The translations under genes were made by a program, and so were the position numbers. From Erythrobacter sp. SCN 62-14 (GTDB lineage Bacteria; Pseudomonadota; Alphaproteobacteria; Sphingomonadales; Sphingomonadaceae): a DNA stretch of 56,456 nucleotides. This document shows positions 2,979-53,119 of this stretch, one piece after another; the first letter of the stretch is position 1; each line of letters opens with the position of its first letter. The notes under the pieces were generated by a model, which worked only from the letters and a program-made list of their open reading frames with translations, had not been told where the DNA came from and searched no databases. The stretch covers positions 1 to 56,456 of the forward strand of contig MEDW01000004.1 of assembly GCA_001724215.1 (NCBI GenBank), in the 5' to 3' direction.

Positions 2979-3820
2979 GCGGCGTGGCGGCGTTTCGTCT
3001 GGGCCGCTTGCTTCGGGCGATCATGGCAGCCGCGCTGATGGCCCTAGCCGCGAGCGCGCCTGCCCATGCCGCGCTCCATTTCGGCGGGCCGCTGACTCAG
3101 GGCGGCTTTATCCGCGGGAAAGCACCGGCCGGAGCGCAAGCGTTAAGTCTTGACGAAACGCGCGTGACCATCGCGCCTGACGGGCGCTTTTTCGCTGCCT
3201 TTGATCGCGACAGTCCGGCCAGCGTGACCTTGCGCGTCACTTATAGCGATGGCCGGGAGGAAACGCGCAGCCTTGCGATTGCTCCGCGCGCGTGGAACAT
3301 CCAGCGCATCAATCTGCCACTTACCGCCAGCGTTCCTGCGGCCGATTTCTGGGAACGCCGCAAGCCCGAGCTTGATCTGATCGCCGCCGCGCGCGCGCGG
3401 GCGACGCCTGCAACCGGCTGGCAGCAGGATTTTATCTGGCCGGTCAGGGGGCGCATTTCCGGCCTGTTCGGACGCCAGCGCATCTATCGCGGCGAACCGG
3501 CGAGTTTTCACACCGGCATCGACATTGCGCCGGGCCCAGGCACGCCGTTCGCAGCCCCTGCCGATGGCGTGGTGGTGCTGGCGCGCAGCGGCTTCAGCCT
3601 TGAAGGCAGCCTCATCATCCTTGATCACGGGGCGGGGCTGAACAGCGCGTTCCTGCACGCCTCGCAGATCCTCGTGACCGAGGGTGAAAGGGTGCAGCAG
3701 GGCCAGATCATCGGCCATGTCGGTGCAACCGGACGGGCCACCGGGCCGCATCTTCACTGGAGCCTCAAATGGCACGATGCACGGCTTGATCCGCTGCTGT
3801 TTACAGGGCCGATGAACTAG
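2975..3820 (+). CDS. M23/LytM-type peptidoglycan endopeptidase, exported
   Basis: Predicted periplasmic zinc metallopeptidase acting on peptidoglycan cross-bridges. I start it at the GTG overlapping the DUF2093 stop codon; this gives a good signal peptide (hydrophobic stretch MAAALMALAASAPAHA, cleavage after AHA). A middle domain of about 100 residues precedes the M23 domain. Zinc-ligand motifs are present: HTGIDIAPG (H and D) and GPHLHWSLKW (HxH), with HASQI between them. With the metal ligands intact it is likely active rather than an EnvC/NlpD-type activator. A longer start at GTG 2924 is possible but would place charged sequence before the signal peptide. Confidence 0.88.
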   Translation: MSGVAAFRLGRLLRAIMAAALMALAASAPAHAALHFGGPLTQGGFIRGKAPAGAQALSLDETRVTIAPDGRFFAAFDRDSPASVTLRVTYSDGREETRSLAIAPRAWNIQRINLPLTASVPAADFWERRKPELDLIAAARARATPATGWQQDFIWPVRGRISGLFGRQRIYRGEPASFHTGIDIAPGPGTPFAAPADGVVVLARSGFSLEGSLIILDHGAGLNSAFLHASQILVTEGERVQQGQIIGHVGATGRATGPHLHWSLKWHDARLDPLLFTGPMN

Positions 3821-3822
3821 GC

Positions 3823-4782
3823 GTGCGCAGCAAGGCGAGAGTGATCGCGGCGCTTGCCGTTGCGCTGATGTGTGCGCCCGGCACATGGCTGCGCAGCGAG
3901 CCCCCACAAGCACCGGCAGGCGATCTCGCCGCCGTCCCAGTCACAGCGCCAAGCGCCACCGGCACGCGAGGATGGGCGCTTGGCGGGTTATGGCACCTGA
4001 CGTCTTCTGATCCCCAGTTCGGCGGCTTTTCTGCCCTGCTTGATCTGGGCGAGGGCCGATTTGCGGCCTTTTCCGATCGCGGCTGGCGGCTCGATTTTTC
4101 GCCGCCCGGAGCGCTGCCACAACCCCCACGGCTTGCCCGAGTGTTCCCCGATGAGGCGCTCCACCATCGCTTTTTCGACATTGAGGCCGCAGTGCATGAT
4201 CCGGCCACCGGGATGCTCTGGCTTGCCTCGGAGAATGATCACGCCATTCACCGCTTCGGTTCGGACGGCACGCCTGCCGGGCGGCGTGATCTGGGCGATG
4301 AGGTCGATTGGACCAGCAATTCCGGTATCGAAGCGATGGTGCGGCTGGAGGACGGGCGGTTTGTGATCCTGCCCGAGGGCCAACGCGAAGGCCTGATCTT
4401 TGCCAGCGATCCGGTCGAGGGGGGCAAGCCTGACCGCTTTGCGATCAAGGTGCCCGAGAAGGGCTATGAGATCACCGATGCCGCAAGGTTGCCCGACGGG
4501 CGTTTGCTGGCGGTGCTGCGCAAGCTCGAATGGCCTTCGCGCCGCGCCTGGCCACCTTTTGCCAGCCTGCTGGCGATCGGCGCTGTGCCCGAGGCAGGCG
4601 GCGTGTTCGCGCCTCAGATCACTTTGCGGCTTGAGGGCGTGCTGCCGCGCGAGAATTACGAAGGCCTCGCCCTGCGCGAACGCAGCGATGGGCGGGTCGA
4701 TGTGTGGATCATCTCGGATGACAATCTGTCGGTGTTCCAGCGCACTTTGCTGGCCAATCTGGTGTTCGATTCTGCGGCGTGA
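3823..4782 (+). CDS. Phytase-like (esterase-like activity of phytase family) exported protein
   Basis: A 319-residue protein with an N-terminal hydrophobic export signal, then a beta-propeller-like sequence typical of the phytase-like family (PF13449 type): FSALLDLGEGRFAAFSDRG near residue 70, LPEGQREGLIF near 185, ENYEGLALRERSDGR near 285 and WIISDDNLSVFQRTLL near the end. The family is periplasmic or secreted; real phytase activity is not established and the substrate is unknown. It starts with GTG 2 bp after the M23 gene stop, so it ends the xseA-side plus-strand unit. A terminator for the convergent rpmB gene follows. Confidence 0.75.
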   Translation: MRSKARVIAALAVALMCAPGTWLRSEPPQAPAGDLAAVPVTAPSATGTRGWALGGLWHLTSSDPQFGGFSALLDLGEGRFAAFSDRGWRLDFSPPGALPQPPRLARVFPDEALHHRFFDIEAAVHDPATGMLWLASENDHAIHRFGSDGTPAGRRDLGDEVDWTSNSGIEAMVRLEDGRFVILPEGQREGLIFASDPVEGGKPDRFAIKVPEKGYEITDAARLPDGRLLAVLRKLEWPSRRAWPPFASLLAIGAVPEAGGVFAPQITLRLEGVLPRENYEGLALRERSDGRVDVWIISDDNLSVFQRTLLANLVFDSAA

Positions 4783-4794
4783 CCCGGACATACG

Positions 4795-4821
4795 AAAAAG
4801 CGCCCGGTTGCCCGAGCGCTT
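4795..4821 (-). terminator. Rho-independent terminator of rpmB
   Basis: Read on the minus strand: a 10-bp stem (one G-T wobble) with a 4-base loop, followed by a run of five T. It lies about 40 bp after the rpmB stop codon and between convergent genes. A second GC-rich stem-loop sits closer to the rpmB stop at about 4833-4855. Confidence 0.75.
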
Positions 4822-4861
4822 GTCCCGTGATTGCTGCCCCTTGCGACAGGGGCGGCTGAGA

Positions 4862-5152
4862 TCAGGCGGCTTCGCTTTGCGCCTTGACCAGCTCGCGCTT
4901 CACCTTGAGGGCGCGCGGGCTGAGCTTCTCGTCGTTGGTCTTGAGCAGCCAGTTGTCGAGGCCGCCATTGTGCTCCACCGAGCGCAGCCCATGGGTCGAG
5001 ACGCGGAACTTGAAGCTGCGATCGAGCTTTTCCGACAACAGCGTGACGTTCTGCAGATTGGGCAGAAACACGCGCTTGGTCTTGTTGTTGGCGTGGCTGA
5101 CATTGTGGCCAGTCATGCGGCCCTTGCCGGTCAGTTCGCAGATGCGCGACAT
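4862..5152 (-). CDS. rpmB: Ribosomal protein bL28
   Basis: A 96-residue ribosomal protein of the large subunit. It begins [20 protein letters not shown] and continues [15 protein letters not shown], both diagnostic of bL28. The extended alphaproteobacterial form (about 96 aa rather than 78) is normal. It is transcribed alone, ends at a good terminator, and is divergent from tadA with about 120 bp between their starts. The N-terminus has a single cysteine at residue 5 and no CxxC zinc pair, so this is not the zinc-binding C+ form. Confidence 0.97.
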
Positions 5153-5274
5153 GGTTGATCTCTTCTCGTTTCGAAAGGTTCAGCGATTGCTGGGAAAGCG
5201 GGGCGCATAACGCCGCCTTGGCGAATCGTCAAGCAAGTTGCGCCTTTGGCCTTGCGGGGGTAGCGCTGAAGCCT

Positions 5275-5730
5275 ATGAACCGCTGGCCACTTCCTGCTCC
5301 CATGAGCCTTGCCTTGCAAGCTGCCCGAGAGGCGGCGGCAGACGGCGAAGTCCCGGTGGGGGCAGTGATCGTCAAGGGCGACAAGGTGATCGCGGTGGCC
5401 GGCAATGCCACGCGCACGCCGCCTGATCCCACCGGCCACGCTGAATTGCGCGCGATTCGCATGGCGGCCGAGGCTTTGGGCGAGGATCGTCTGGTGGCTT
5501 GCGATCTCTATGTCACGCTGGAGCCTTGCGCGATGTGTGCAGGCGCGATTGCCCATGCGCGCATTGCTCGGCTTTATTACGCGGCCAGCGATCCCAAAGG
5601 CGGCGCGGTGGAACATGGCGCGCGGGTGTTCGATCAGCCGCAATGCCTGCACCGGCCCGAAGTCTATTCCGGCATGGGCGAGGCCGAAGCGGCGGAATTG
5701 CTGCGCGGGTTCTTCAGGGAGCGGCGATAG
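5275..5730 (+). CDS. tadA: TadA, tRNA-specific adenosine deaminase
   Basis: Deaminates wobble adenosine 34 of tRNA-Arg(ACG) to inosine, letting it read CGU, CGC and CGA. The CDA-fold zinc motifs are complete: GHAELRAIR (zinc His and catalytic Glu) and LEPCAMCAGAI (two zinc Cys). At 151 aa the length is normal. I chose the ATG at 5275 (MNRWPLPAPMSLAL) because the upstream in-frame extension has no family resemblance. The window also encodes tRNA-Arg(CCG), which reads the remaining CGG codon and is not a TadA substrate. Confidence 0.93.
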   Translation: MNRWPLPAPMSLALQAAREAAADGEVPVGAVIVKGDKVIAVAGNATRTPPDPTGHAELRAIRMAAEALGEDRLVACDLYVTLEPCAMCAGAIAHARIARLYYAASDPKGGAVEHGARVFDQPQCLHRPEVYSGMGEAEAAELLRGFFRERR

Positions 5731-5877: not shown

Positions 5878-5948
5878 GCAAGTGGCAGCTCCCCACCCAC
5901 TTGCCGCCATTCGCGCGCAGTCTCGCCGTCCTCGAAAGCCGCCAAGCT

Positions 5949-6686
5949 TCACATCCCGCGCCAGATCCTCGCAGGGGCTGTGTCCTTTGCGCCGAGCCTG
6001 CCCGCGCTGCATCTGGCGGGTCTGAAGCGCGATGAATAGCACAGGCGGATTTCTTCGAGCCAGCCGCGCTCATTCAGTTTCACTCCGACTGCATCGGCGC
6101 GCCAGCCGGGGTTCTCCGCCACAAAGGCTGTGCGAATTGCTCCTGCGGTGAGGCCCTTCTCGCGGCTCAATCGATCATAATCGGGGATTTGCAGCGATTG
6201 CCACAGGATGCGGGTGACGCCGAGATAGGTTTCGGGCCGCCGCGTTATGCAGGCGCCATGCTTGGCCCATTGCCGCGCGACCAGCCGGGCGGACGGCATC
6301 ATGCACAGCGCCCCGCGCACTTCGGCAGGGGTCAGGCTGCTCCCCTGTTCGCACCATTGCGGCCAGCTTCCGCCGCTTTCCGGCCAAAGCCCATGCACGA
6401 TCAGGCCAAAACTGCCCTGATCGCCTGAGCATTGGAAAGCATGGGCGCGCGCGCCTTGGCGGGGTTTGCAGAATTCCGGGCTCCATGACAGGGCCAGCGT
6501 GTAACCGGTGACAGGCAGCACCCGGCGCGGCCCATCGGGCGCAATGGCGGGCACGGTGCTGACCTGCGGCGCGCGGCACTGGAACGCCTGCGCCTGAAGC
6601 GCTGCGGGCAAGATCAGCGCGAGCGCGGCTGCCAGCCTAGTCAAAGACTGCAGGATCAACCTCCTTCGCCCGTGCAAACCATTCAT
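5949..6686 (-). CDS. RNase T2 family ribonuclease, exported
   Basis: A 245-residue exported endoribonuclease. A hydrophobic signal segment (RLAAALALILPAALQAQA) precedes the mature domain. The first active-site motif is intact (FGLIVHGLWPE), with LALSWSPEFC upstream. The second reads RQWAKHGAC, where the usual HEWxKHG would place a catalytic Glu at the Gln. I use the ATG at 6686, which overlaps the upstream gene by 50 bp. A strong AAGGAGG lies downstream of that ATG, so translation might really begin at a CTG or TTG near 6645-6655. It is the last gene of the nadC unit. Confidence 0.85.
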   Translation of the reverse strand: MNGLHGRRRLILQSLTRLAAALALILPAALQAQAFQCRAPQVSTVPAIAPDGPRRVLPVTGYTLALSWSPEFCKPRQGARAHAFQCSGDQGSFGLIVHGLWPESGGSWPQWCEQGSSLTPAEVRGALCMMPSARLVARQWAKHGACITRRPETYLGVTRILWQSLQIPDYDRLSREKGLTAGAIRTAFVAENPGWRADAVGVKLNERGWLEEIRLCYSSRFRPARCSAGRLGAKDTAPARIWRGM

Positions 6687-7086
6687 GACTGGCAGGCAGA
6701 AACAGCATGAGCGCGCCCAGCGCCGCAAAGGCAAAACTGACAAGACGTTCCGCTTCGCCGCCGCTTGCTCCGCCTGCCACTGCCACAGCGCTGGCGAAGG
6801 CTCCCGGCGCTTTTACCAGCGTCATAACGCTCACCAGCCAGCGCGCGATTGCCGCTGCCATCAGCCACACCATCGCCAGCGGGATCAGCGCAATCGTGAG
6901 ATTGCTCGACAGCCAGACGATCACCCTGTCCCTGTCCCACGGGAAATAGGGATATTCGACCTGAAGGCGCGTTTCGGTAAGGCCCAGATCGCTCATCCCG
7001 TCGAGAAAAGGAACCAGCGCGGCGGTGAGGAAGGCGGCGGCAAAGATGTTGATCGGGAGCGGGCGCGGGCGTGACAGCGGGATCAT
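6637..7086 (-). CDS. Unrecognised inner-membrane protein (nadC unit)
   Basis: A 149-residue protein I cannot assign. Hydrophobic stretches near residues 12-30, 60-85 and 112-132 suggest three membrane helices, with a polar stretch (LTETRLQVEYPYFPWDRDRV) between the first two. Its ATG overlaps the nadC stop codon (ATGA), so it is translationally coupled to nadC. The downstream RNase T2 gene overlaps its 3' end. No conserved motif hints at a function. Confidence 0.7.
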   Translation of the reverse strand: MIPLSRPRPLPINIFAAAFLTAALVPFLDGMSDLGLTETRLQVEYPYFPWDRDRVIVWLSSNLTIALIPLAMVWLMAAAIARWLVSVMTLVKAPGAFASAVAVAGGASGGEAERLVSFAFAALGALMLFLPASHEWFARAKEVDPAVFD

Positions 7087-7958
7087 AGGGGTTTGAAATC
7101 TAGGCCTATGTCTGCCGCAGGCGCGCTTTGGGTGAGGCGGCCGACTGAGATGTAATCGACGCCCGATGCTGCCTTGGCCGCGATGGTTTCAAGGTTCACG
7201 CCTCCGCTTGCCTCGGTCGGCACCCGGCCATCCACCATGCGCACCGCTTCGGCCAGCATAGCGGGCTCCATATTATCCAGCAGCAGGTGATGCGCGCCGG
7301 CATCCAATGCCGGTTCGATCTGGGCCAGCTCATCAACCTCGCAGATGATGCGAGGAACGCCCGCCTCGCGCGCCCGCCGCACCGCTTCGCCGACGCTGCC
7401 TGCGACCGCGACGTGATTATCCTTGATCATCGCGGCATCCCATAATCCCATGCGGTGGTTTTGCGCGCCGCCTTGACGGGTTGCGTATTTCTCCAGCGCG
7501 CGCAGGCCGGGCAAGGTCTTGCGGGTATCGAGCAGGGTGCATGATGGGTTCCCGCCGGCCCCTCGCATCGCGGTGACATAGGCATGGGTGAGCGTCGCAA
7601 TCCCGCACAGGTGTTGCAGCGTGTTGAGCGCGCTGCGTTCGGCGGTGAGCAGCGCGCGGGCCTTGCCTGCGATGTGCATGAGGTCGCTGCCTGCGGGCAC
7701 AAAGTCGCCATCGCGCGCCAGCAGCGTGATGGTGCAATCGGGATCGAGCGCAAGGAAGAACGCCTCTGCCACCGGAAGGCCCGCGACCACCACGGCCTCG
7801 CGCGCCGACATGACCCCTGCAAAGCGCGCATCATCGGGGATCACGCTTTCAGAAGTGACATCGCGCCCGCCCCCTGCCTGCCCTTCGCCCAAGTCTTCGG
7901 CAAGCGTTTCGCGGACGAATTGGGCAAGGTCAAAGCCGGGGAGTGTAAAGTTGCTCAT
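7083..7958 (-). CDS. nadC: NadC, nicotinate-nucleotide pyrophosphorylase (carboxylating)
   Basis: Quinolinate phosphoribosyltransferase, third step of de novo NAD synthesis, cytosolic. Signature residues: DTRKTLPGLRALEKYA, GAQNHRMGLWDAAMIKDNH (substrate-binding Arg, His and Lys), EVDELAQIEPAL, LLLDNM and EASGGVNLETI. It is 291 aa, the normal size. The frame stays open upstream through a repeat-rich stretch, but MSNFTLPGFDLAQFV at 7958 is the family-like N-terminus. It is first in a unit with the membrane protein and RNase T2 genes. nadA and nadB are not in the window. Confidence 0.95.
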   Translation of the reverse strand: MSNFTLPGFDLAQFVRETLAEDLGEGQAGGGRDVTSESVIPDDARFAGVMSAREAVVVAGLPVAEAFFLALDPDCTITLLARDGDFVPAGSDLMHIAGKARALLTAERSALNTLQHLCGIATLTHAYVTAMRGAGGNPSCTLLDTRKTLPGLRALEKYATRQGGAQNHRMGLWDAAMIKDNHVAVAGSVGEAVRRAREAGVPRIICEVDELAQIEPALDAGAHHLLLDNMEPAMLAEAVRMVDGRVPTEASGGVNLETIAAKAASGVDYISVGRLTQSAPAADIGLDFKPL

Positions 7959-7971
7959 GGCGACGCACCAT

Positions 7972-8217
7972 AAACGGAGCCGCAGGCTCCGCAAGGGCGC
8001 CAGAAGACGGCGCCAAAAGACGGCGCCAAAAGACTCAGGCGCCCGCCCGCAGGGGGCGCGGCTATGCCGCGCGTCGAGCGAGGACGAAGGCGCGTAAGGC
8101 GCCTTCGCAACCAAACGGAGCCGCAGGCTCCGCAAGCGCGACCGCGCGCCCGCAGGTGCCCGCAGCGAAGCGGAGGAACAGCACCGAGGATGAGCGCGCG
8201 GAGGCGCGCTCACCAAA
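7972..8217. repeat. Mosaic hairpin array A between the LytTR regulator and nadC
   Basis: A non-coding mosaic of perfect hairpins. Two copies of CGGAGCC-gca-GGCTCCG-CAAG are at 7975-7995 and 8115-8135. A direct repeat GACGGCGCCAAAA occurs twice at about 8007-8032. A 9-bp stem with a GTAAG loop sits at 8085-8107, and a 9-bp stem with a GGAG loop at 8191-8212. The last module starts 6 bp beyond the stop codon of the regulator gene, so it may end or protect that transcript. Related modules occur at 40447-40577. Confidence 0.75.
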
Positions 8218-19929: not shown

Positions 19930-21165
19930 CTAGGCTGCCGGTTCAAGCGTTGTTTGCACCTCGCCCCACGCGGGGAAGGGATCGTTCAATCGCTCCCACT
20001 TGTCGGGCGTGAAATCCTCACCCGGCTCGAGGCACTGATCGAGCGCCGCGGTGATGGCGGCCTTATCCATGTTGATGCCGATAAACACCAATTCCTGCCG
20101 CCGGTCGCCCCATACCGGGTGCCAGTGCTTGACGACGAATTCTTCAAAAGTGCCATCATCGGGCCAGCGATTCTTGGGAACCGCTGCCCACCAGCGCCCC
20201 ATCCGGCTGACGCTTTTCTGATGGCCTGCAATGGCGAGTTCGCCCAGAAAATCGCTGCGGGTTGCCAGCCAGAAATGGCCCTTGGCGCGGATCACCTTAT
20301 CCAGCACATCACTCGTCAGGAAGCGGTAGAACATCGCCGGATGGAACGGACGGCGCGCGCGATAGACAAAGCTTTCAACGCCATACTCCTCGCTTTCGGG
20401 GCGGTGACTGGCGAAATCATACAGCTCTTTCAGCCACAGCGGGTGTTGTTCGGCCTGTTCCTCGTCATAAAGGCCGGTATCCAGCACTTCGTCCAAAGCG
20501 ACCTTGCTGTAATCGGCCTCGATGATCTTGGCATCGCCATTGAGGGACGCGACCACCTTTTTGACCATCGCGAGCTGCTCAGGGCTGACCGCGCCAGCCT
20601 TGTTCACAATCACCACATCGGCAAATTCGATCTGTTCGACCAACAGGCTGACAAGGCTGCGATCATCGCCCTCTCCTGCGGTTTCGCCCCGGGCTGACAA
20701 CAGATCGCTGCTTGAATAATCAGCCAGCAGGTTCATCGCATCGACCACCGTCACCATCGTATCCAGCCGCGCCACATCGCCCAGGCATTGGCCGTCTTCA
20801 TCGCGGAAGGAGAAGGTGGCCGCGACCGGCAGGGGTTCGGAAATCCCGGTGCTTTCAATCACGAGGTAATCAAACCGGCCTTCTGCCGCGAGCCCGCGAA
20901 CTTCCTTCAACAGATCATCACGCAAGGTGCAGCAGATGCAGCCATTGGTCATTTCGACCAGCGATTCCTCGGCGCGCGACAAGGCCGCTTCGCCGCCGCG
21001 CACCAGATCGGCATCGATGTTCACCTCGCTCATATCATTGACGATCACCGCGACCCGCTTGCCTTCGCGGTTGGCGAGGATGTGGTTCAAGAGGGTGGTT
21101 TTGCCCGCCCCCAGAAAGCCCGAAAGCACAGTTACGGGCAGGCGGTTGTCGGCAAGGTTCGGCAT
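19930..21165 (-). CDS. zigA: ZigA-type zinc chaperone GTPase (COG0523/CobW family)
   Basis: A 411-residue cytosolic GTPase that delivers or manages zinc under starvation. The P-loop is [18 protein letters not shown], the metal-binding motif GCICC is in [15 protein letters not shown] (about residues 70-84), and the switch [12 protein letters not shown] follows. The CobW C-terminal domain is complete ([14 protein letters not shown] and VFIGINMDK). The length and sequence fit the Zur-regulated ZigA subgroup rather than cobalamin CobW. It is divergent from the merC-like gene, with a Zur-box candidate in the 134-bp gap, 72 bp upstream of its start. Confidence 0.88.
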
Positions 21166-21236
21166 GGAAAAGAAGGTCCCGATGGTTGGATTGCAAGGGA
21201 GAGGAAGGATGACTCGATAGTCAGAATTTCAGCTTG

Positions 21237-21250
21237 TATGTTACAACATA
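21237..21250. promoter_or_regulatory. Zur box 1, between zigA and the merC-like gene
   Basis: TATGTTACAACATA is a perfect 14-bp palindrome with the ATGTT-NN-AACAT core typical of proteobacterial Zur sites. Placed centrally in a divergent promoter region, it could control both genes. A Zur-type regulator is encoded at 52649. Confidence 0.7.
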
Positions 21251-21299
21251 TCATCCCATATGCGGGCTCGTAAAGGGGCAAATCAACCGGGGCACCGCG

Positions 21300-21704
21300 A
21301 TGAACATGAACGCACCACCCAGACCTGCCATTCTTGGTGAGCCTGCGGCACACCGCGCAGGCATGGTGCTTTCGGCGCTGTGTCTGGTGCATTGCCTGAT
21401 GCTGCCGCTCGTGCTCGCCGCTGCACCGGTGGTGGTGCTGGCCACTATCCCGGCTGGCTGGCTTGAGGCCGAATGGCTCCACGCTGCGCTGATTGCGCCG
21501 GTGGTGCTGGTGAGCGGACCGGTGCTTTGGCGCAGCGGCGGAGTGCGGGCCGGTGTGCTGGTGGCGGCGGTGGCGGCGCTGATTGGCGCGCTGTTTGTGG
21601 CCAGCGACAGGCTTGAAACAGGGCTGACAGTTGCCGGCGCGCTCACCTTGCTCGCGGCACATGGCTTTACCTTGCGCCAGCGCAAGGTGCATGGACTTCT
21701 ATGA
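21300..21704 (+). CDS. MerC-domain membrane protein
   Basis: A 134-residue inner-membrane protein with four helices and the MerC hallmark LSALCLVHCLMLPL (Cys and His-Cys in the first helix). MerC proteins carry mercury in mer operons, but no merA, merT, merP or merR is present. Here the context is zinc: Zur box 1 is 50 bp upstream and zigA is divergent. A zinc-import role is therefore more plausible (inference). I start at MNMNAPPRP; an upstream in-frame start would run through the operator. Confidence 0.8.
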   Translation: MNMNAPPRPAILGEPAAHRAGMVLSALCLVHCLMLPLVLAAAPVVVLATIPAGWLEAEWLHAALIAPVVLVSGPVLWRSGGVRAGVLVAAVAALIGALFVASDRLETGLTVAGALTLLAAHGFTLRQRKVHGLL

Positions 21705-21707
21705 GGC

Positions 21708-21721
21708 AATGTTATAACGTT
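21708..21721 (+). promoter_or_regulatory. Zur box 2, in front of the lipoprotein-ABC operon
   Basis: AATGTTATAACGTT matches the Zur core with one mismatch from perfect symmetry. It contains TATAAC (21714-21719), a fair -10 hexamer. TGGACT 16 bp upstream is a weak -35. A start of transcription near 21727 would coincide with the next ATG, implying a leaderless mRNA repressed by zinc-loaded Zur. Confidence 0.65.
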
Positions 21722-21726
21722 GTGGC

Positions 21727-22017
21727 ATGTTCCCGCTTCGCCTTGCCCCCGCTTTACTCCTCATATGGGGAGCCGCCCCGCTTGCGGCCTGCGATCTTGA
21801 TGGACTGCCCGGTTTTCACCGCGCCAACCCTTTTGCCCGCGCCCCGATCTTCCGCGGCGCGCCGCCAGTGCAGCCTGCAATGCCTGCTCCGGGTGGCGAA
21901 CCTGTGGCCAAGCCGAAAGAGCTCTCGCCGCCCGACTATGCCCCTGCGCCGCGTCCGTGGGAGCGCACCGATAATCCCGGCCCGATCAGTCCCGAGGACA
22001 AGGCCATCTTCACCTGA
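21727..22017 (+). CDS. Small proline-rich lipoprotein of the zinc-responsive operon
   Basis: A 96-residue protein. The signal ends in the lipobox LAAC (Cys about residue 22), so it should be lipidated. The mature part is short and rich in Pro and Ala (FRGAPPVQPAMPAPGGEP, PPDYAPAPRPWER) and looks unstructured, with a single His. There is no Shine-Dalgarno before the ATG; the upstream Zur box with its -10 element suggests leaderless translation. I recognise no family. It occupies the operon position in which other bacteria place a His-rich DUF2796 protein, but shows no similarity to it. Confidence 0.7.
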   Translation: MFPLRLAPALLLIWGAAPLAACDLDGLPGFHRANPFARAPIFRGAPPVQPAMPAPGGEPVAKPKELSPPDYAPAPRPWERTDNPGPISPEDKAIFT

Positions 22018-22032
22018 ATTTGATATGTGATC

Positions 22033-22686
22033 ATGCGGCTTGAGGTTTCCCGATTGGGCAAGGCCTATGCGGGCCGCCCTGTGCTTGATGACGTATCCTT
22101 CACGCTTGATGCAGGAGAGCGTCTGCTGTTGCTCGGTCCGTCGGGTTCGGGGAAATCGACGCTGCTCAACATCATTTGTGCGCTGGCGCGGCCGGATCGC
22201 GGCGAGGTGCGGCTGGGTGATGAACTGCTTGCCGCGCCGAGCGGGGCGGGTCGGGGCGATGCTCTGCGCCGCGCGCACATCGCAATTATCTTTCAAGGGC
22301 TGCGGCTTGTCTCGGCGCTCAGCGTCTGGGGCAATCTGGCGCTGGCGCAGCGCTTGCAGACAGGGCGCAGCGATCCGGGTGCGATTGCTGTGCTGCTCGA
22401 ACGGCTTGGTCTGGGCCACCGCGCTGATGCTCGGCCCCATGAACTCTCACAAGGCGAAGCCCAGCGCGCCGCGATTGCCCGCGCACTGGTGGTGCGCCCG
22501 CAATTGCTGATCGCAGACGAGCCCACTTCCGCGCTCGACCACGCCAACGCCAAGGTGGTGGCCGAATTGCTCGATGAATTGGCGCGCGAGGCGGGGGCCA
22601 GCCTGCTGGTGGCCACCCATGATGATCGGCTAACCAGCCATTTCCCGCGCCAATTGCGGCTTGATAGTGGCAGGCTGGCGGCATGA
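22033..22686 (+). CDS. ABC transporter ATPase (LolD/MacB type), zinc-responsive operon
   Basis: A 217-residue ATPase: Walker A LLGPSGSGKSTLLN, Q-loop IIFQGLRL, signature LSQGEAQRAAIARAL, Walker B LLIADEPTSALD, H-loop VATHDD. It belongs to the LolD/MacB/FtsE class that partners FtsX-like permeases, not the ZnuC class of classical zinc importers. ATG at 22033 is preferred; a GTG two codons earlier is possible. The permease ATG overlaps its stop (ATGA). It probably powers envelope work, such as lipoprotein or metal-chaperone handling, rather than ion flux. Confidence 0.9.
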   Translation: MRLEVSRLGKAYAGRPVLDDVSFTLDAGERLLLLGPSGSGKSTLLNIICALARPDRGEVRLGDELLAAPSGAGRGDALRRAHIAIIFQGLRLVSALSVWGNLALAQRLQTGRSDPGAIAVLLERLGLGHRADARPHELSQGEAQRAAIARALVVRPQLLIADEPTSALDHANAKVVAELLDELAREAGASLLVATHDDRLTSHFPRQLRLDSGRLAA

Positions 22687-24035
22687 TCCGCCTTGCTCTC
22701 GCCTATCTTGCGGATCGCCCGCTCACCAGCGCGCTCAATGTGCTGTTGCTGGCGATTTCGGTCGCCATGCTGGTGCTGCTATTGCAATTCAGCAGCCAGG
22801 CAGAGGAGCGGTTTGAGCGCGATATTGCCGGCATTGATCTGGTGGTGGGAGCCAAGGGATCACCCTTGCAACTGATCTTGTCGAGCGTTTTTCATGTCGA
22901 TTCTCCCACCGGCAACATCCCGGTTGAAAGCATCGATCTGCTGCGCCGTGATCCCGCCGTGGCGCGGGTGGTGCCGCTGGCTCTGGGGGACAATTTCGAC
23001 GGCTTCAGAATTGTTGGCACAGATGCTGGCTTTGCCGGGCTGTATGATCTCAAGCTTGCCGAAGGGCGCAGTTTTGCAGCCCCGATGGAGGCGGTGCTGG
23101 GCGCAGATGTGGCGCGTCAGACCGGCGCAAAGCTGGGGCAGAAATTTATCGGCAGCCATGGGCTTGGCGATGATCCGCAAGGCGATCAGGGCCACGATCA
23201 CGCGCCGTTCACCACAGTCGGCATTCTGGCGCCCAGCGGCACTGTGGCGGATCGGCTGATCCTGACATCGGTGGAAAGCGTGTGGGCCGTGCACGGGATC
23301 GGGCATGACCATGACCATGACCATGACCATGACCATAAAACAGGCCACGATCACGCCCACGGGCATGACCACGATCACCACAAGCACCATGCCCATGATG
23401 ATCACGATCACGATCACGATCATGCAGCCCCTTCGCTTGCCTCGCCTGCTGCGCCTGCTCCCTTGCAGGCCAGCGGCAGCGGGCTGGAGCCTGAATTCAC
23501 AGCCTTGCTGGTCACTTATCGCAACGCGTCTGCCGCGATCCGCCTGCCCGCCATGATCAATCGCCAGACTGCGCTGCAATCGGCGGTTCCCGCTACTGAA
23601 ACGGCGCGTCTGATCGAACTGATTGGGGCCAGCCTTGCCGGGATCAAGGTGTTTGCATGGCTGTTGGCGGCGACCGGGGGCCTTGCGATTTTTGTCGCGC
23701 TGCTTGCGGCGTTGCGCGCGCGCGAAGGCGATCTGGCGCTGCTGCGAGTGATGGGGGCCAGCCGGGCTCAGGTGTTTGGCACGATGCTGCTCGAAGGGGT
23801 GATAACAGCGGCAGCAGGCGCCGTGCTGGGCTGGCTGGCGGCGCATGGCCTGATGGCGCTGGCGGCTGCGCGGTTTGCGACGCTGGCTGACCTTGGTTTT
23901 TCCCCGTTCCAGTTTCATTCAGGCGAAATCGCGCTTGTCGCCGGGGTGCTGGGGATTGGCGCGCTTGCCGCGTTGATTCCGGCGATCCGCATCTATCAGC
24001 TTGATCCGGCGCGCGTTATGGCGCGCAGCCTGTAA
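22683..24035 (+). CDS. FtsX/MacB-type ABC permease with His/Asp-rich loop
   Basis: A 450-residue membrane protein. TM1 is at about 15-36, then a large periplasmic domain (residues 40-315), then three C-terminal helices with the FtsX-like core (GDLALLRVMGASRAQVFGTM) and RIYQLDPARVMARSL at the end. The periplasmic domain contains a 44-residue insert (204-247) with 21 His, mostly alternating with Asp, plus HDH at 171-173. This should bind several zinc ions. The DNA of the insert includes five CATGAC repeats. Similar ATPase-permease-DUF3299 sets occur in Zur regulons of Pseudomonas and Vibrio (recalled, not checked). Confidence 0.88.
   Translation: MIRLALAYLADRPLTSALNVLLLAISVAMLVLLLQFSSQAEERFERDIAGIDLVVGAKGSPLQLILSSVFHVDSPTGNIPVESIDLLRRDPAVARVVPLALGDNFDGFRIVGTDAGFAGLYDLKLAEGRSFAAPMEAVLGADVARQTGAKLGQKFIGSHGLGDDPQGDQGHDHAPFTTVGILAPSGTVADRLILTSVESVWAVHGIGHDHDHDHDHDHKTGHDHAHGHDHDHHKHHAHDDHDHDHDHAAPSLASPAAPAPLQASGSGLEPEFTALLVTYRNASAAIRLPAMINRQTALQSAVPATETARLIELIGASLAGIKVFAWLLAATGGLAIFVALLAALRAREGDLALLRVMGASRAQVFGTMLLEGVITAAAGAVLGWLAAHGLMALAAARFATLADLGFSPFQFHSGEIALVAGVLGIGALAALIPAIRIYQLDPARVMARSL
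23304..23336 (+). repeat. In-frame hexanucleotide repeat (CATGAC)5
   Basis: Five and a half perfect CATGAC units encode alternating His-Asp; a second stretch of GATCAC units lies at about 23400-23423. Units of six keep the frame when copy number changes. Confidence 0.9.
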
Positions 24036-24052
24036 AGAAGGAGCCCCGAGCG

Positions 24053-24562
24053 ATGATCCGCGCCCTTGCTGTCGTCCTTGCCACGGGTCTGGCCGCGCTT
24101 GCCCCTGCGGCAACGGCCCAGAACGCCAAACAGATCGGCACCAGCCGCCCTCCGGTGGTGGAAGATGTCTGGAAACCGGCGGCCACTCCGCCGGGAGGCA
24201 CTTCATGGAAACTGCTCGAATCGACCGGCGAGACCACCCGCACCGATGCGCAAGGCTTCATCGTCTCCAAACCGATCTTCCCTGCTCAGGTCAAAGCCTT
24301 GGCAGGCAAACGCATCAAGGTCGCTGGCTGGATGATGCCCTTGAGCCCCGGAGCCAAGCAAAAGCGGTTCGTTCTGCTCGGCTATCCGCCGGGTTGCCCG
24401 TTCCATTTCCACGCCGCGCCCAACCAGTTCATCGAGGTTTTTGCCGAAACCCCTTTCCCGACCAATGAAACCAAGGTTATCGTGGTAAGCGGGGTGCTTG
24501 AACTCACCGGCTATGATGAAAGCGGCATTTTCTACCGCTTGCGCGCCGCCCGCCAGGGCTGA
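24053..24562 (+). CDS. DUF3299 exported protein
   Basis: A 169-residue protein with a signal peptide (LAVVLATGLAALAPAATAQ). The mature domain resembles an OB-like fold and has the family motif GYPPGCPFHFHAAPNQFIEV, whose Cys and two His could bind metal. DUF3299 proteins recur next to LolD/FtsX-type ABC genes in Zur regulons (established association; biochemical role unknown to me). AAGGAG precedes the ATG and the gap after the permease is 17 bp, so it is in the same operon. Confidence 0.85.
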   Translation: MIRALAVVLATGLAALAPAATAQNAKQIGTSRPPVVEDVWKPAATPPGGTSWKLLESTGETTRTDAQGFIVSKPIFPAQVKALAGKRIKVAGWMMPLSPGAKQKRFVLLGYPPGCPFHFHAAPNQFIEVFAETPFPTNETKVIVVSGVLELTGYDESGIFYRLRAARQG

Positions 24563-24607
24563 CCGCACTTCGCCGCTCCCTCCCCGCGCCCCAAGGAACC
24601 TCTCGCC

Positions 24608-25963
24608 ATGACCGCTCTTTCTGCCAACCGCCGCCAATTGCTGGGCGCGACCTCCAGCGCCTTTGCCGCTTTGCTGGCCAGCGGAGCCATCATCCGCGCC
24701 AGCAGCGCTGCGGCCAGCGGGCAACAAGCGGGGCCATCCTATGGCCCGCTGATCGCAGACCCGGCAGGGCTGATCGATTTGCCGCAAGGCTTCAGCTACC
24801 GCGTGATCTCCAGCCTTGGCGATGGCATGGATGATGGCGGAACAGTGCCCGATCACGCCGACGGGATGGGCTGTTTTGCGCTTCCCGATGGAGAGATCGC
24901 GCTGGTGCGCAACCACGAATTGACCCAGCGCCACGACACAGGCGGACCGATCGCCCATGGCTTTGGCCGCTGCAATGGCGCGATTGTGGCGGGCGGAACC
25001 ACCACTATCGTGCTTGATGCTGAAACGCTGGCCGTCAAACGCCAGTTCCGCAGCCTTGGCGGGACTATTCGCAATTGTTCGGGCGGGATCACCCCTTGGG
25101 GAACATGGCTCACCTGCGAGGAAGCCCCGACCGGGCCGGGCCAGAAATATGGCGAGGGTCTGGAAGTCAATCATGGCTGGGTGTTCGAAGTGCCCGCCAA
25201 TGCCACCGGCCTTGTTAAAGCCGTTCCCTTGCGCGCCATGGGCCGGTTTAATCACGAAGCGGCTTGCATCGATCCCGAAACGGGCATGGTTTATATGACC
25301 GAAGACCGCGACGATGGCGTGATCTATCGCTTTATCCCCGCAGTCCCCGGCGATCTGGTGCAAGGCGGGCGCCTTCAGGCGATGGTGGTCGAAGGACTTG
25401 CCGACACCCGCAACTGGTCCGGCAATCGGCAGGGCGCTGCGATGGACAAGCGGCGCTATTACTCGGTCCGCTGGATTGACCTCGATGATGTCGAAGCGCC
25501 CAAGGACGATCTGCGCCTGCGTGCAGCGGCACAGGGCGCAGCGCTGGTCGCGCGCGGTGAGGGCATTCACATGGGGACAGATGATCTCTTTATCTGTGCC
25601 ACCAGCGGCGGCGCGGCAGGCTTGGGTCAAATCTTCCGCCTTGTGCCGGGGCGCGGGAAGGAGGCCTGCCGCATCGAATTGTTCTTCGAAAGCGAAAGCA
25701 AGGACCAGTTCGATTTCGGCGACAATCTGACTGTTGCACCCAATGGCCATCTGGTGGTGTGCGAGGATCAATACACCGAGGTGGTCGATAATCACCTGCG
25801 CGGCATTACGCCGCAGGGCACAGCCTATCCGCTTGCCCGCCTGCGCTGGCAGACAGAATTTGCCGGCGGGTGCTTTTCGCCTGATGGCAAGACCTTGTTC
25901 GTCAATGTCTATTCACCCACCCGCACGCTTGCGATCACCGGTCCGTGGGAGCGGTTTGGCTAG
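24608..25963 (+). CDS. PhoX-like (DUF839) protein, Tat-exported
   Basis: A 451-residue periplasmic protein with a Tat signal (NRRQLLGATSSAFAALLASG). The mature sequence follows the DUF839/PhoX pattern: ALVRNHELTQR, ITPWGTWLTCEEAPTG, FNHEAACIDPETGMVYMTED, DNLTVAPNGHLVVCEDQ, FAGGCFSPDGKTLFVNV. PhoX phosphatases use iron and calcium instead of zinc (established). It begins 45 bp after DUF3299 with AAGGAA upstream, so it probably belongs to the zinc-responsive operon. It is shorter than classical PhoX and the Cys ligand was not verified, so phosphatase activity is an inference. Confidence 0.75.
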   Translation: MTALSANRRQLLGATSSAFAALLASGAIIRASSAAASGQQAGPSYGPLIADPAGLIDLPQGFSYRVISSLGDGMDDGGTVPDHADGMGCFALPDGEIALVRNHELTQRHDTGGPIAHGFGRCNGAIVAGGTTTIVLDAETLAVKRQFRSLGGTIRNCSGGITPWGTWLTCEEAPTGPGQKYGEGLEVNHGWVFEVPANATGLVKAVPLRAMGRFNHEAACIDPETGMVYMTEDRDDGVIYRFIPAVPGDLVQGGRLQAMVVEGLADTRNWSGNRQGAAMDKRRYYSVRWIDLDDVEAPKDDLRLRAAAQGAALVARGEGIHMGTDDLFICATSGGAAGLGQIFRLVPGRGKEACRIELFFESESKDQFDFGDNLTVAPNGHLVVCEDQYTEVVDNHLRGITPQGTAYPLARLRWQTEFAGGCFSPDGKTLFVNVYSPTRTLAITGPWERFG

Positions 25964-26287
25964 GCCTGCCATGTGCGCGGCAGCGATAAGCCCAGCATAA
26001 TCAGCCGCAACCACCAGCACCATGAGGCTGGATCCTGCAAGCGGTTGGAGGGGAGCGAGCCGGCCATTCCTCCGGGCCATTCGGGCGCGCCATCATGGCG
26101 CGGCGTGACACGACCCTGAAGCTGCGCGATGTTGCGGCTCCTGTCCGCCAACAGGCCCGGTGACACGCGGTGCGCACGCAAGACAACAGATGGGGTATTT
26201 GCCCCACCATGCTTGTCACCATGCGCGCCCTCGCCCAAGGTGGCCTGCCGCTTGCACGCTGAAGGCCCGGCCACAGGAGCACCACCG
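25964..26287. other. Intergenic region before the molybdenum enzyme
   Basis: A 324-bp stretch with no credible gene. I looked for riboswitch landmarks (molybdenum cofactor, cobalamin, TPP) and for a terminator with a T-run and found none. It most likely carries the iorB promoter. Confidence 0.5.
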
Positions 26288-28669
26288 ATGTTGTTGCGCG
26301 ATCTCGGGATCATTCCCGCCCAGAAATCCCCGGTGACAGACGGCGGAAACCGCCCCCATGTCAATCTCAGCCGCCGTGCTTTTGTCGGCGGGGCGGGCCT
26401 GTTTGTGATCGGCGTGACTTTGGCGGGCTGCGACATTTTTCCCGAGCCTGAGATTGACGCCTCCGCCTTTGATCTGCCCGATGCTGGCCCCAGCCCGCTG
26501 ACCGGGGTGAAGGGCGGCGATGCAACGCCGATGCTGTGGATCGCGATTGACAAGGATGGCACGGTGAAAATCACCTGCCACCGCTCGGAAATGGGCCAGC
26601 AGGTCTGGACCTCGATGGCGCAGATCATCGCCGATGAGCTTGAGGCCGAATGGGAGAACGTCCAGATCGTGCAGGCCGAAGGGCACGAACGATACGGCGA
26701 TCAGAACACTGATGGCTCGCGCTCGGTCCGCTTCAATTTCCACCGCTTGCGCGTGGCAGGGGCGGCGATGCGGCAGATGCTGGTGGCGGCGGCTGCGCTC
26801 TATTGGGAACTTCCGGCGGAGAAATGCTCGGCCAAGGGCGGACGTGTCAGCAACACCGAAAACGGCAACACCTTGTCCTATGGCAATCTGGCAGAGCTGG
26901 CCGGGCGGCTGGAAATCCCTGCCGAAGAAGAGATTACGCTCAAATCGCGCAAGGAATGGCGCTATATCAACACCGAGATGCCCTCGTTCACCGTGCCGCG
27001 CTTGGTGAAGGGCGAGGGGACTTTCGGAATTGATGTGCAGCGCCCCGGCATGGTCTATGCGGTGGTTGCTCGCCCGCCGCAGGTGTTTGGCCGGGTGGCG
27101 AGTTTCGATGACGCCAAGGCACGCAAAGTGCCCGGCGTGCTTGGCACGGTGCGCTTGCCCGATGCCAAGCCGCCTGCGCTGTTCCAGCCTTTGGGCGGGG
27201 TCGCCGTGGTGGCGCGCGATACCTGGGCTGCGATCGAAGGTCGCCGCGCGCTGGAGGTGGAGTGGGCTTCGGGGCCCAATGCGGGCTATGATTCCGAGGC
27301 TTACGCCGAACAATTGAAGGCCACTGCCAAGCGCAGCGGCAAGCTGCGCCGCGCGCGCGGCGATGCGCCCGGAGCGCTTGCTTCAGCATCGAAGCGCGTG
27401 GTGGCGGATTACTACACCCCGCATCTCGGCCAGACCCCGATGGAGCCGCCTTGCGCCACCGCGGAATGGACGGGCGACACGCTGGAATGCTGGGCCTCGG
27501 TGCAGGACCCGCAAAGCACACGGGGGGCGCTGGCCGAGGCGCTCGGCATCGACAAGGAGAAGATCACCGTCACCCCGACATGGCTGGGCGGCGCGTTCGG
27601 GCGCAAGTCCAAGCCTGATTTCGTGATCGAAGCGGCATTGATTGCGCGCGAAGTGGGTAAGCCGGTCAAACTCACCTGGACGCGCGAGGATGATGTGCGC
27701 CACGGCTATTACCATTCGGTGAGCGCGCAGCATCTTGAAGGCGGGCTGGCTGCGGATGGCACTTGCACCGCATGGCTGCACCGCACGGTGTTCCCGCCGA
27801 TCAGCTCCACCTTTGATAATTCGGTGACTGATCCCAGCGACGGCGAAATGGGTATGGGGGCCAGCGATGTGCCCTTTGCCGTGCCCAATCTGCGCGTCGA
27901 ATCAGGCAGCGCCAAGGCGCATCTGCGGATTGGCTGGCTGCGTTCGGTTGCCAATATCTACCACGCCTTTGCGGTGCAGAGCTTTGCTGCTGAACTCGCC
28001 CATGCCGCAGGCCGCGATCAAAAGGATTACCTGCTTGATCTGATTGGCCCGGCGCGGCTGGTTGATCCGACTGCGGAGGGCGCGAAATACGGCAATTACG
28101 GAGCCTCGCTGGAGGACTATCCGATCGACACCGCACGGCTTCGTGGGGTTATCGAAAAGGCCGCTGCCATGGCCAAGTGGGGGCGCAAGCTGCCCAAGGG
28201 CCGGGGCCTTGGCATTGCCGCGCATCGCTCCTTCCTCAGCTATGTCGCAACCGTAGTTGAAGTGGAGGTGAGTGCGGACGGCGCGCTGCGCATTCCCGGC
28301 GTGTGGGTGGCGGTGGATGCCGGCACCGTCATCAACCCGCGCCATGTCCGCGCGCAAATGGAAGGGGGCACGATTTATGGCCTCTCGAACGCGCTTTACG
28401 GAGCAATAACGGCCAAGAACGGCGCGGTGGTGCAGGATAATTTCCCAAGTTGGCGGCTGATGCGGATGGAGGAGGCGCCGCGCGCTTTTGAGGTGGAGAT
28501 CATCCCCTCAGACGCCCCGCCCGGAGGTGTGGGCGAACCCGGCACGCCGCCTGCCGCGCCTGCGCTTGCCAATGCGATCTTTGCCGCCACTGGCCACCGC
28601 CTGCGCACGCTCCCGCTGATCGGGCCGGACGCAAACAAACTCACACTGCCAGCCGCCACGAGCGCCTAA
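26288..28669 (+). CDS. IorB-type molybdopterin subunit (isoquinoline 1-oxidoreductase beta / aldehyde oxidase), Tat-exported
   Basis: A 793-residue large subunit of a periplasmic xanthine-oxidase-family enzyme. The Tat motif [10 protein letters not shown] is followed by a hydrophobic stretch ending in a Cys. Mo-cofactor segments include [19 protein letters not shown] and [20 protein letters not shown]; the catalytic Glu lies in [20 protein letters not shown]. The ATG at 26288 follows a GGAG. The small Fe-S subunit gene starts 15 bp later; no FAD subunit is present, so electrons probably go to a cytochrome, as in IorAB-like enzymes. The substrate (aldehyde or N-heterocycle) cannot be told. Confidence 0.88.
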
Positions 28670-28684
28670 AATAGGGGACAGGAC

Positions 28685-29140
28685 ATGGCGATTACTCTCA
28701 AAATCAACGGCCAATCCCAAGAGGTTGATGCCGCCCCCGGCACGCCTTTGCTGTGGGTGCTGCGCGATCATCTGGGGATGACCGGCACGAAATTCGGCTG
28801 CGGCGCGGCGCAATGCGGGGCCTGCACGGTGCATGTCGATGGTGAACTGACGCGCGCCTGCGTTACCCCTCACGACAGCCTTGATGGCGCGGCGATCACC
28901 ACCATCGAAGGCGTCGAGGGGCGCGCAGCAGACGCGATCCGCAAGGCGTGGGTTGCCAATGATGTGCCGCAATGCGGCTATTGCCAATCGGGCCAGATCA
29001 TGGCCGCCGCCGCCCTGCTGCGCGACAATCCCAAGCCCGATGACGCCGCGATTGATGCGGCGATGAGCGGCAATCTGTGCCGCTGCGCCACCTATATGAG
29101 CATCCGGCGCGCCATCAAGGAGGCGGCCACGACACTTTGA
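28685..29140 (+). CDS. IorA-type [2Fe-2S] subunit
   Basis: A 151-residue iron-sulfur subunit of the enzyme above. The plant-type [2Fe-2S] cluster motif is GCGAAQCGACTVHVDG and the second cluster is QCGYCQSGQIM with GNLCRCATYMSIRRAI. It has no Tat signal of its own, as is usual: the complex is exported with the large subunit. A strong GGGGAC ribosome site precedes the ATG. Confidence 0.92.
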   Translation: MAITLKINGQSQEVDAAPGTPLLWVLRDHLGMTGTKFGCGAAQCGACTVHVDGELTRACVTPHDSLDGAAITTIEGVEGRAADAIRKAWVANDVPQCGYCQSGQIMAAAALLRDNPKPDDAAIDAAMSGNLCRCATYMSIRRAIKEAATTL

Positions 29141-52599: not shown

Positions 52600-52648
52600 C
52601 CCACGCACCCCATAGGAAAAACACGCCCAAAGCGCTATATTGCAGCCC

Positions 52649-53119
52649 ATGGCAACCACGGCTCACACCCACGCGCATCATGAACACAGCGGCGAAAGCC
52701 TGATTGCGGCAGCGGCCCGCTCGCTCACAGAGGCGGGCGAGCAATGGACCGCGATGCGCGAGGCGGTGTTTGCTGAACTTGCGCGACACGAGAGGCCCGT
52801 ATCGGCCTATGACATTGCCGATAATCTTTCCGCTGCGCGCGGCAAGAGGGTCGCGCCCAATTCGGTCTATCGCATTCTCGATGTGTTTGTGGCGAACAAT
52901 CTGGCGATGCGGGTGGAAAGCGCCAACGCCTTTCTTGCCAACACCCATCCGGGCTGCGCGCATGATTGCATCTTTCTGGTCTGCGATGAATGCGGCGAGG
53001 CAGCCCATGTCGATGACGAAGACGTAAGCCGGGCGGTGCGCGGCATTGCGGCGGCGCGCGGCTTCAAGGCGGAGCGGCCGGTGCTGGAGATCCGCGGACT
53101 GTGCAAGGCCTGCACCTGA
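52649..53119 (+). CDS. zur: Zur, zinc-responsive Fur-family repressor
   Basis: A 156-residue Fur-family protein. The winged-helix domain (HERPVSAYDIADNLSAARGK, VAPNSVYRILDVFVANNL) is followed by the dimer/metal domain with HPGCAHDCIFLVCDECGEA and C-terminal LCKACT; the two CxxC pairs form the structural zinc site. Its N-terminus is His-rich (HTHAHHEH). This layout is Zur rather than Fur. Its probable targets are the Zur boxes 31 kb away at 21237 and 21708. ATG 52649 has no Shine-Dalgarno; TTG 52640 is an alternative. Confidence 0.85.
   Translation: MATTAHTHAHHEHSGESLIAAAARSLTEAGEQWTAMREAVFAELARHERPVSAYDIADNLSAARGKRVAPNSVYRILDVFVANNLAMRVESANAFLANTHPGCAHDCIFLVCDECGEAAHVDDEDVSRAVRGIAAARGFKAERPVLEIRGLCKACT

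Follow-up and report, generated by a model that had tools for sequence, protein, structure and literature searches.

A ZrgA-less relative of the Zrg systems in a probably Zur-controlled zinc-starvation operon of Erythrobacter sp. SCN 62-14

The ZrgABCDE systems of Vibrio cholerae and Vibrio parahaemolyticus are Zur-controlled systems of zinc starvation that include a MacB-type permease, an ATPase and a DUF3299-type protein. In the excerpted text of PMC9820375, ZrgD is a protein of 101 amino acids with one transmembrane helix, and V. cholerae zrg mutants grow more poorly in low zinc. The PA4063-PA4066 genes of Pseudomonas aeruginosa, which are likewise Zur-regulated and encode a split MacB (ATPase plus permease), a DUF3299-type partner and the ZrgA protein PA4063, are the subject of PMC11481552, an excerpt of which calls PA4063- and PA4066-type genes invariably associated with the ATPase-permease pair. 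The function of these machines is disputed, with zinc import using ZrgA as the binding protein in the available part of PMC9820375 set against cobalt-pyochelin export in that of PMC11481552. Here we analyse a related cluster at positions 21166-25963 of a 56,456-nucleotide stretch (the window, contig 4 of the 2.8-Mb, 95% complete draft genome of Erythrobacter sp. SCN 62-14), in which ATPase, permease and DUF3299 genes stand together with genes for a MerC-like membrane protein, a small Cys protein and a PhoX-like protein, and in which no ZrgA was found. The reading that we favour, with a probability of roughly 0.55, is that of a zinc-starvation operon repressed by Zur, the core of which is a Zrg type-VII ATP-binding cassette (ABC) machine of a clade without ZrgA; this machine would handle zinc.

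The cluster and its Zur box

Gene families were assigned with Pfam and NCBIfam (Table 1). The merC-like to phoX genes form a run of six plus-strand genes (21300-25963) with intergenic gaps of 22, 15, -4, 17 and 45 bases, and zigA lies divergently on the minus strand, just before position 21166. This bore out the gene set proposed in a first-pass annotation of the sequence, including its PhoX-like end gene, and the zur gene that it had placed in the same window corresponds to a FUR-family gene (52640-53119) that matches Pfam FUR and is probably Zur. Scans for sigma-70 promoters and terminators across 21100-26400 did no better than shuffles.

When 26 sphingomonad-type loci were searched de novo for palindromes in the DNA 5' of the ATPase (1 kb at most), the consensus TGnTATGnTATAnCATAnCA emerged, with sites above 20 bits in 11 of the 26, the window included. 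Scored with a motif from the ten other loci, box 1 reaches 26.1 bits, the best non-overlapping site in the 56 kb reaches 9.0, and none of 100 first-order Markov windows attained 20 bits. A pattern search of the whole genome returned nine places with at most three mismatches, box 1 being the only one with at most one, and the reversed control pattern found no place in this genome. Of two other A/T-rich matches, each with three mismatches, one lies before an ABC-2 operon and the other in the stretch that separates a FUR gene from a TonB receptor gene. In 23 of 53 held-out loci, a set that included 20 ZrgA loci, the top-scoring site was no more than 300 bp 5' of a cluster gene, with 2.6 expected. 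Of the two Zur boxes proposed in the first-pass annotation, the first is therefore far beyond chance, and the second, at 2.7 bits, did not hold up as a motif match. Because sites of 12.0 to 31.4 bits are placed alike, at or just before the small-gene start, in four comparison loci (L027, L048, L049 and L059; loci carry L numbers and genomes G numbers throughout), two of which contributed their sites to the motif training set, box 2 is suggestive by position alone. Zur control of the cluster is well supported at the sequence level by the motif score of box 1 and the genome-wide pattern search, and as it is joined by homology to the Zrg systems, we conclude that the cluster is probably a zinc-starvation operon under Zur control, its regulation being much surer than its mechanism. 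A second FUR-family gene, 37% identical to the window's regulator, is encoded on contig 117 of the same genome (L183:5063-5560), with a Zur-type box at 5633-5652, a TonB receptor gene at 5923-8037 and a further 15.9-bit site at L183:1801.

A permease clade that lacks ZrgA

The ATPase-permease-DUF3299 triad is homologous to ZrgC-ZrgB-ZrgE, so the related sets that the first-pass annotation had placed in other Zur regulons are the Zrg systems. The window permease finds the ZrgA-linked permease of L042 (E value 1.6e-32, 31% identity), and with the latter as second query a permease was found in 18 of 20 ZrgA loci within the DNA fetched, a His-rich stretch being present in none. These 20 loci were fetched from the 65 genomes over the cut-off for ZrgA (DUF2796, PF10986), a family with matches in 74 of the 398 genomes searched from the phylum; PF10986 has no match in the draft genome studied here, so the claim that a DUF2796 partner is missing holds for that draft. 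A ZrgA hidden Markov model (HMM) built here matched the 20 fetched loci and L042, mostly its own training rows, and among the window and L025-L122 it found no match besides L042. In a quick permease tree of 110 rows, some on long branches, the 19 ZrgA-linked permeases (the 18 and that of L042) form one clade with a Shimodaira-Hasegawa-type approximate likelihood-ratio test (SH-aLRT) value of 100, apart from the other 91 rows, the window included. The converse arrangement was seen in two of the 20 ZrgA loci, L156 and L171, which hold ZrgA, MerC, ZigA and a FUR-type (Zur-like) gene and no such permease in the 13 kb fetched. The window cluster differs from ZrgABCDE in that no ZrgA was found in it or in the draft genome; it carries a His-rich stretch within a permease of a separate clade, and adds the MerC-like, small Cys and PhoX proteins. 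No title or abstract listed from the open literature (subscription papers lay outside the scope) described a Zrg clade lacking ZrgA, a Zur regulon with MerC or a PhoX under the control of Zur.

The permease (E 1e-20 or better) occurs in 19 of 196 genomes of the order, representing 14 of 63 genera. Scanning named genomes with two peptide patterns matched at least 596 stretches, of which at least 576 encoded a relative; by their titles, the best 80 of these relatives (L043-L122), all of which we used here, come from Sphingomonadales, other Alphaproteobacteria, Beta- and Gammaproteobacteria, Bacteroidota and Latescibacterota, and the best-scoring relatives are from Altererythrobacter and Erythrobacter. 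The ATPase lies directly 5' of the permease in 79 of these 80. Near the permease in the 110 tree rows, neighbours labelled by tblastn cut-offs comprised DUF3299 in 55 (a lower bound, because DUF3299 diverges fast), MerC-like genes in 25 (at least 14 changes on the tree), ZigA in 21 (15 changes), Zur-like genes in 12 (10 changes), a label that can include other FUR proteins, and PhoX in 8 (6 changes); the Fur-like protein of L025 gave no match to Pfam FUR. Conservation in relatives, set beforehand as a check on the cluster, is thus seen in a permease clade that spans several phyla, often with zinc-type neighbours. The gene set had been called unusual; conserved in relatives and related to the Zrg systems, it is less singular than first thought. 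We conclude that the cluster is a real and probably Zur-controlled ZrgA-less variant of the known Zrg kind.

The permease itself differs between the two groups. The loop from H204 to E271 holds at least four His in 62 of 92 ZrgA-less permeases and in none of the 19 ZrgA-linked ones; the set of 92 counts one genome twice (L026 and L062) and omits L033, L034, L036, L037, L040 and L041, which have stop codons or come from the same or nearly the same genome as another row. H159, H171 and H204 are invariant in all 111 permeases of both clades and lie outside the two peptide patterns that selected L043-L122, whereas the conservation of D73 and H71 is biased by that selection. In an AlphaFold2 model (mean predicted local distance difference test score, pLDDT, 86.3), residues 208-223, 225-253 and 258-266, which make up the His-rich loop, score below 50. 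The model has the type-VII ABC fold of MacB and LolCDE: among PDB entries it is closest to MacB (5gko, TM-score 0.59 relative to query length), then to LolCDE, and the heme exporter HrtBA matches too. The permease scored 26.2 bits against the LolC/LolE equivalog model TIGR02212, far from its cut-off of 362.45. Permease frames with an in-frame stop or truncation, reflecting decay or sequencing error, were seen in L044, L059, L033 and L034; three of these are in fragmented drafts and L059 is on a 4.1-Mb contig.

This fold underlies the main rival, namely that the machine is a MacB-like exporter of a metallophore, or of a metal-metallophore complex, made in zinc starvation, as proposed for PA4063-PA4066. 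Besides the structural proximity to MacB, LolCDE and HrtBA, the argument for export draws on P. aeruginosa genetics and inductively coupled plasma mass spectrometry in the available part of PMC11481552, where pyochelin-cobalt export is proposed from the PA4065 data. The window cluster, however, shares with MacAB-TolC and LolCDE the permease fold and a LolD/FtsE-like ATPase, and departs from them in having no MacA-type adaptor among its genes (no search for a partner elsewhere in the genome was made), a single permease gene with a His-rich loop and three invariant His, and zinc-type neighbours. Unlike PA4063-PA4066, it also includes neither ZrgA nor a metallophore synthesis gene among its genes (no search for one was made near the loci or across the genome). 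As the His loop and the three invariant His suggest that the machine itself binds metal, and the clade is present in several phyla, we regard metallophore export as unlikely here.

Proteins encoded around the permease

In the MerC-like protein, C28, H31, C32, P36 and H121 are invariant in 24 of 24 sequences with 20-32% identity to the window copy, such that the CxxHC motif and the late His form a Cys2His2 set in a predicted membrane protein. It resembles the MerC mercury transporters in its Pfam MerC match and in being a paired-Cys membrane protein, and differs from them in the CxxHC motif and the zinc-gene context; a search of 72,556 plasmid records returned no match to it at E 1 or better. 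In 13 of the 23 genomes that hold both MerC and ZrgA, the two genes are no more than 6 kb apart, with about 0.1 expected by chance. MerC as a general zinc gene was rejected, as at most six of 20 loci chosen away from ZrgA have a zinc-type neighbour, some of these matches being weak or merely FUR-family, and in four of the 20 the MerC gene was too distant for tblastn.

The small Cys protein matches Pfam only through stray single-member hits. Several Alphaproteobacteria encode related proteins directly 5' of the ATPase, and four Pedobacter loci have a similar one there. The first-pass annotation had described a tiny Pro-rich lipoprotein; the window copy is Pro-rich, but the family is not, and its conserved feature is a Cys that immediately follows the signal sequence. 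In 15 alphaproteobacterial members (L036 and L040, the same as or near L055 and L057, and L049, with no clear signal, were omitted), Ala stands at -1 in all 15 and at -3 in 13, and Asp follows the Cys in nine. A signal ending in AxA before Cys is of the signal peptidase I type rather than a lipobox, and by the Escherichia coli rule an Asp after the Cys would retain a lipoprotein in the inner membrane. The signal thus looks more like a signal peptidase I site than a lipobox, although LAA before Cys in the window copy would pass as the latter. Two loci without the His loop, L056 and L061, have a small protein with two Cys (CGGCEED and CDGCEED). In the Pedobacter-type loci L071, L102, L113 and L119, a lipoprotein-like gene for 40-60 amino acids (NPGCKH and similar) occupies the place of the small Cys protein.

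These observations bear on a Lol-like alternative in which the cargo is not zinc but the small (lipo)protein, or a different envelope protein that carries zinc, and the machine extracts it or sets its position. The best scores of the ATPase with FtsE and LolD, the place of LolCDE among the best fold matches and the position of the small gene 5' of the ATPase would all suit such a machine, but 13 of the 15 signals end in AxA before Cys, nine carry the Asp, and no small gene was seen in clusters such as L025, L060 and L097, where ATPase, permease and DUF3299 remain. We therefore consider it very unlikely, and the earlier suggestion that the machine mobilises a zinc-carrying lipoprotein is not sustained; the permease's own His-rich loop is the likelier zinc carrier. 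The third member of the triad, the DUF3299 protein, gave a profile match to 4hsp_A (E 6.8e-9), which we take to be PA4066, and its Cys115 is present in 26 of 26 aligned sequences, mostly with a Cys or His two or three residues further on.

PhoX begins 45 bp after DUF3299 and shares the stretch NC-x-x-G-x-TPWGTxLTCEE with the solved PhoX 4amf. The order from ATPase to PhoX is the same in Erythrobacter longus (L046, strain DSM 6997, and L047), with merC divergent there, and the L046 cluster has a motif site at L046:6145 that belonged to the training set; PhoX lies 5' of the ATPase in three genomes of another family, and nearby on the opposite strand in L051 and L115. Each of four cluster-PhoX genomes checked has a PhoA-type phosphatase, and the cluster PhoX is their only PhoX. 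PhoA is a zinc enzyme and the PhoX family depends on iron and calcium, so a zinc-sparing exchange of PhoX for PhoA fits. One could extend this to the whole operon, with PhoX replacing PhoA and the ABC machine repairing or remodelling the envelope without direct zinc transport. Consistent with this are the presence of PhoA beside a single PhoX in the cluster and the at least six times that PhoX joined or left the cluster on the permease tree; however, PhoX is near the permease in just eight of 110 rows, the triad exists without it, and no Zur box precedes the PhoX genes located elsewhere in relatives, making such an operon improbable. Zur control of PhoX alone was likewise rejected, with an upstream site in none of seven scanned. 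One 17.7-bit site was found beyond the 3' end of a relative's PhoX, just before the next gene. In two genus-mates (L206:2311-4727 and L207:2479-4900), a related PhoX directly follows genes for a phytase (by Pfam in L206 and by similarity in L207) and, judged by sequence, a TonB receptor, which hints at release of phosphate, perhaps also of zinc, from phytate.

Table 1. Positions in the window of the genes, Zur boxes and permease loop discussed in the text
Feature	Position	Strand	Evidence and remarks
ZigA/COG0523 zinc metallochaperone GTPase	19930..21165	-	NCBIfam NF038288, 589.9 bits (just below cut-off 600); Pfam cobW and CobW_C
Zur box 1, in the zigA-merC intergenic region, may control transcription both ways	21234..21253		26.1 bits, leave-window-out motif
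MerC-like membrane protein	21300..21704	+	Pfam MerC, 41.2 bits (cut-off 27.6)
Candidate Zur box 2, weak	21705..21724		2.7 bits
Small secreted Cys protein, 96 amino acids	21727..22017	+	Matches no Pfam family; window copy has possible lipobox (LAA before Cys)
ABC ATPase, LolD/FtsE/MacB type, ZrgC counterpart	22033..22686	+	Pfam ABC_tran; NCBIfam nearest FtsE and LolD, far below cut-offs
MacB_PCD and FtsX permease, ZrgB counterpart	22683..24035	+	Pfam; invariant H159, H171, H204
Permease His-rich loop, residues 205-266, probably disordered	23295..23480	+	Alignment; low pLDDT
DUF3299 protein, ZrgE/PA4066 counterpart, Cys115	24053..24562	+	Pfam DUF3299, 28.8 bits (cut-off 22); 4hsp_A profile match
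PhoX-type alkaline phosphatase-like protein	24608..25963	+	Pfam PhoX, 264 bits; Tat-like signal NRRQLL (by eye)
FUR-family regulator, probable Zur	52640..53119	+	Pfam FUR; NCBIfam Zur model, 66.8 bits (below cut-off 167)

Directly 3' of the cluster, at 26288-29140, lie genes for a molybdopterin-hydroxylase-like large subunit (Pfam MoCoBD_1/2) and, by sequence, a small 2Fe-2S subunit.

Zinc handling by the cluster and its meaning

The ABC-2 operon with a Zur-type match mentioned above lies on contig 111 of the same genome (L182), where the box (5505-5524) stands about 108 bp before an ATPase-permease operon (3269-5397) with Pfam ABC2_membrane_2 and DUF3526 that resembles znuGHI of Caulobacter as described in the available text of PMC4176598. 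The Caulobacter Zur regulon of that excerpt (znuGHI, TonB receptors and the COG0523 protein zrpX) resembles the one studied here in class and in the shape of the Zur box, and its ABC-2 operon and TonB receptor have counterparts with Zur-like boxes in the genome of the window; by contrast with the cluster, the words FtsX and lipoprotein are absent from the text of PMC4176598. The ABC-3 permease family of ZnuB (PF00950) gave a partial match in this genome (E 3.6e-4), and the draft yielded neither a full-length ZnuB nor a ZIP. Across 28 genomes there was one full-length ZnuB-type match (G032, E 1.8e-70), and ZIP exceeded its cut-off in three. A plain replacement of ZnuABC or ZIP by the cluster was rejected: ZnuB is also missing from the nine same-genus genomes among the 28 that do not have the cluster, as is ZIP from every one of these except G143, so the cluster is no simple stand-in for ZnuB or ZIP. 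The machine may instead complement another importer. The ZepA exoprotein system was rejected as well, being a different protein in the excerpted text of PMC10957091.

Several observations weigh against a zinc-handling operon. The best-known MacB machines are exporters. Zur sites are missing from the three nearest permease relatives (L043-L045) and from other loci, 15 of the 26 motif-searched loci having none above 20 bits; nor was a Zur site found upstream of PhoX genes elsewhere in relatives (four of the same type and three of another scanned) or before PhoX in L030-L032. Fewer than four His occur in the loop of 30 of the 92 ZrgA-less permeases, and with all ZrgA-linked permeases in a single clade, the loop contrast counts as just one evolutionary event. 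A second MerC-like gene (CAVHC) in the same genome (L185:7237-7623, contig 10) sits, by eye, beside thiG/rplM with no zinc genes seen nearby, in the same place as in the genus-mate L186, and 14 of the 20 MerC loci chosen away from ZrgA show no zinc-type neighbour. The Zur-boxed ABC-2 system means that the cluster need not be the genome's zinc importer. Finally, in the available part of PMC11481552, deletion of PA4065 in a znuA zrmB background of P. aeruginosa made no relevant difference to zinc and raised cobalt.

Set against these are the gene set, the Zur box, the homology to ZrgC-B-E, the absence of ZrgA, the His-rich loop and the invariant residues of metal type, all of which are read from the sequence. 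Most likely, the cluster would encode an ABC machine that works by mechanotransmission, capturing zinc in the periplasm and handing it on. Under zinc scarcity, Zur would release the operon, and the permease's own His-rich loop and three invariant His would collect scarce periplasmic zinc, assisted by the small Cys protein and DUF3299. ATP hydrolysis would then shift the periplasmic domain, ions not passing through the permease, such that metal is loaded or released and passed towards the inner membrane. For entry into the cytoplasm, where ZigA would receive the zinc, the strongest candidate is the MerC-like Cys2His2 membrane protein, and PhoX would serve as a zinc-free phosphatase that spares zinc when PhoA starves. 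A more specific version, in which the type-VII machine binds zinc with its His-rich arm and three invariant His and loads the MerC-like protein as a Cys2His2 channel by mechanotransmission, is tentative and, taken as a whole, doubtful; if true, it would amount to active zinc uptake with an ABC permease as the pump arm and not the pore.

The permease clade without ZrgA and the two ZrgA loci without the permease, both as seen in the DNA fetched, form a natural experiment that separates the parts of the Zrg system. From it we would expect the permease to handle metal itself, and the MerC-like protein becomes a candidate for a missing membrane step, while PhoX in a Zur-controlled operon suggests a link between zinc and phosphorus.

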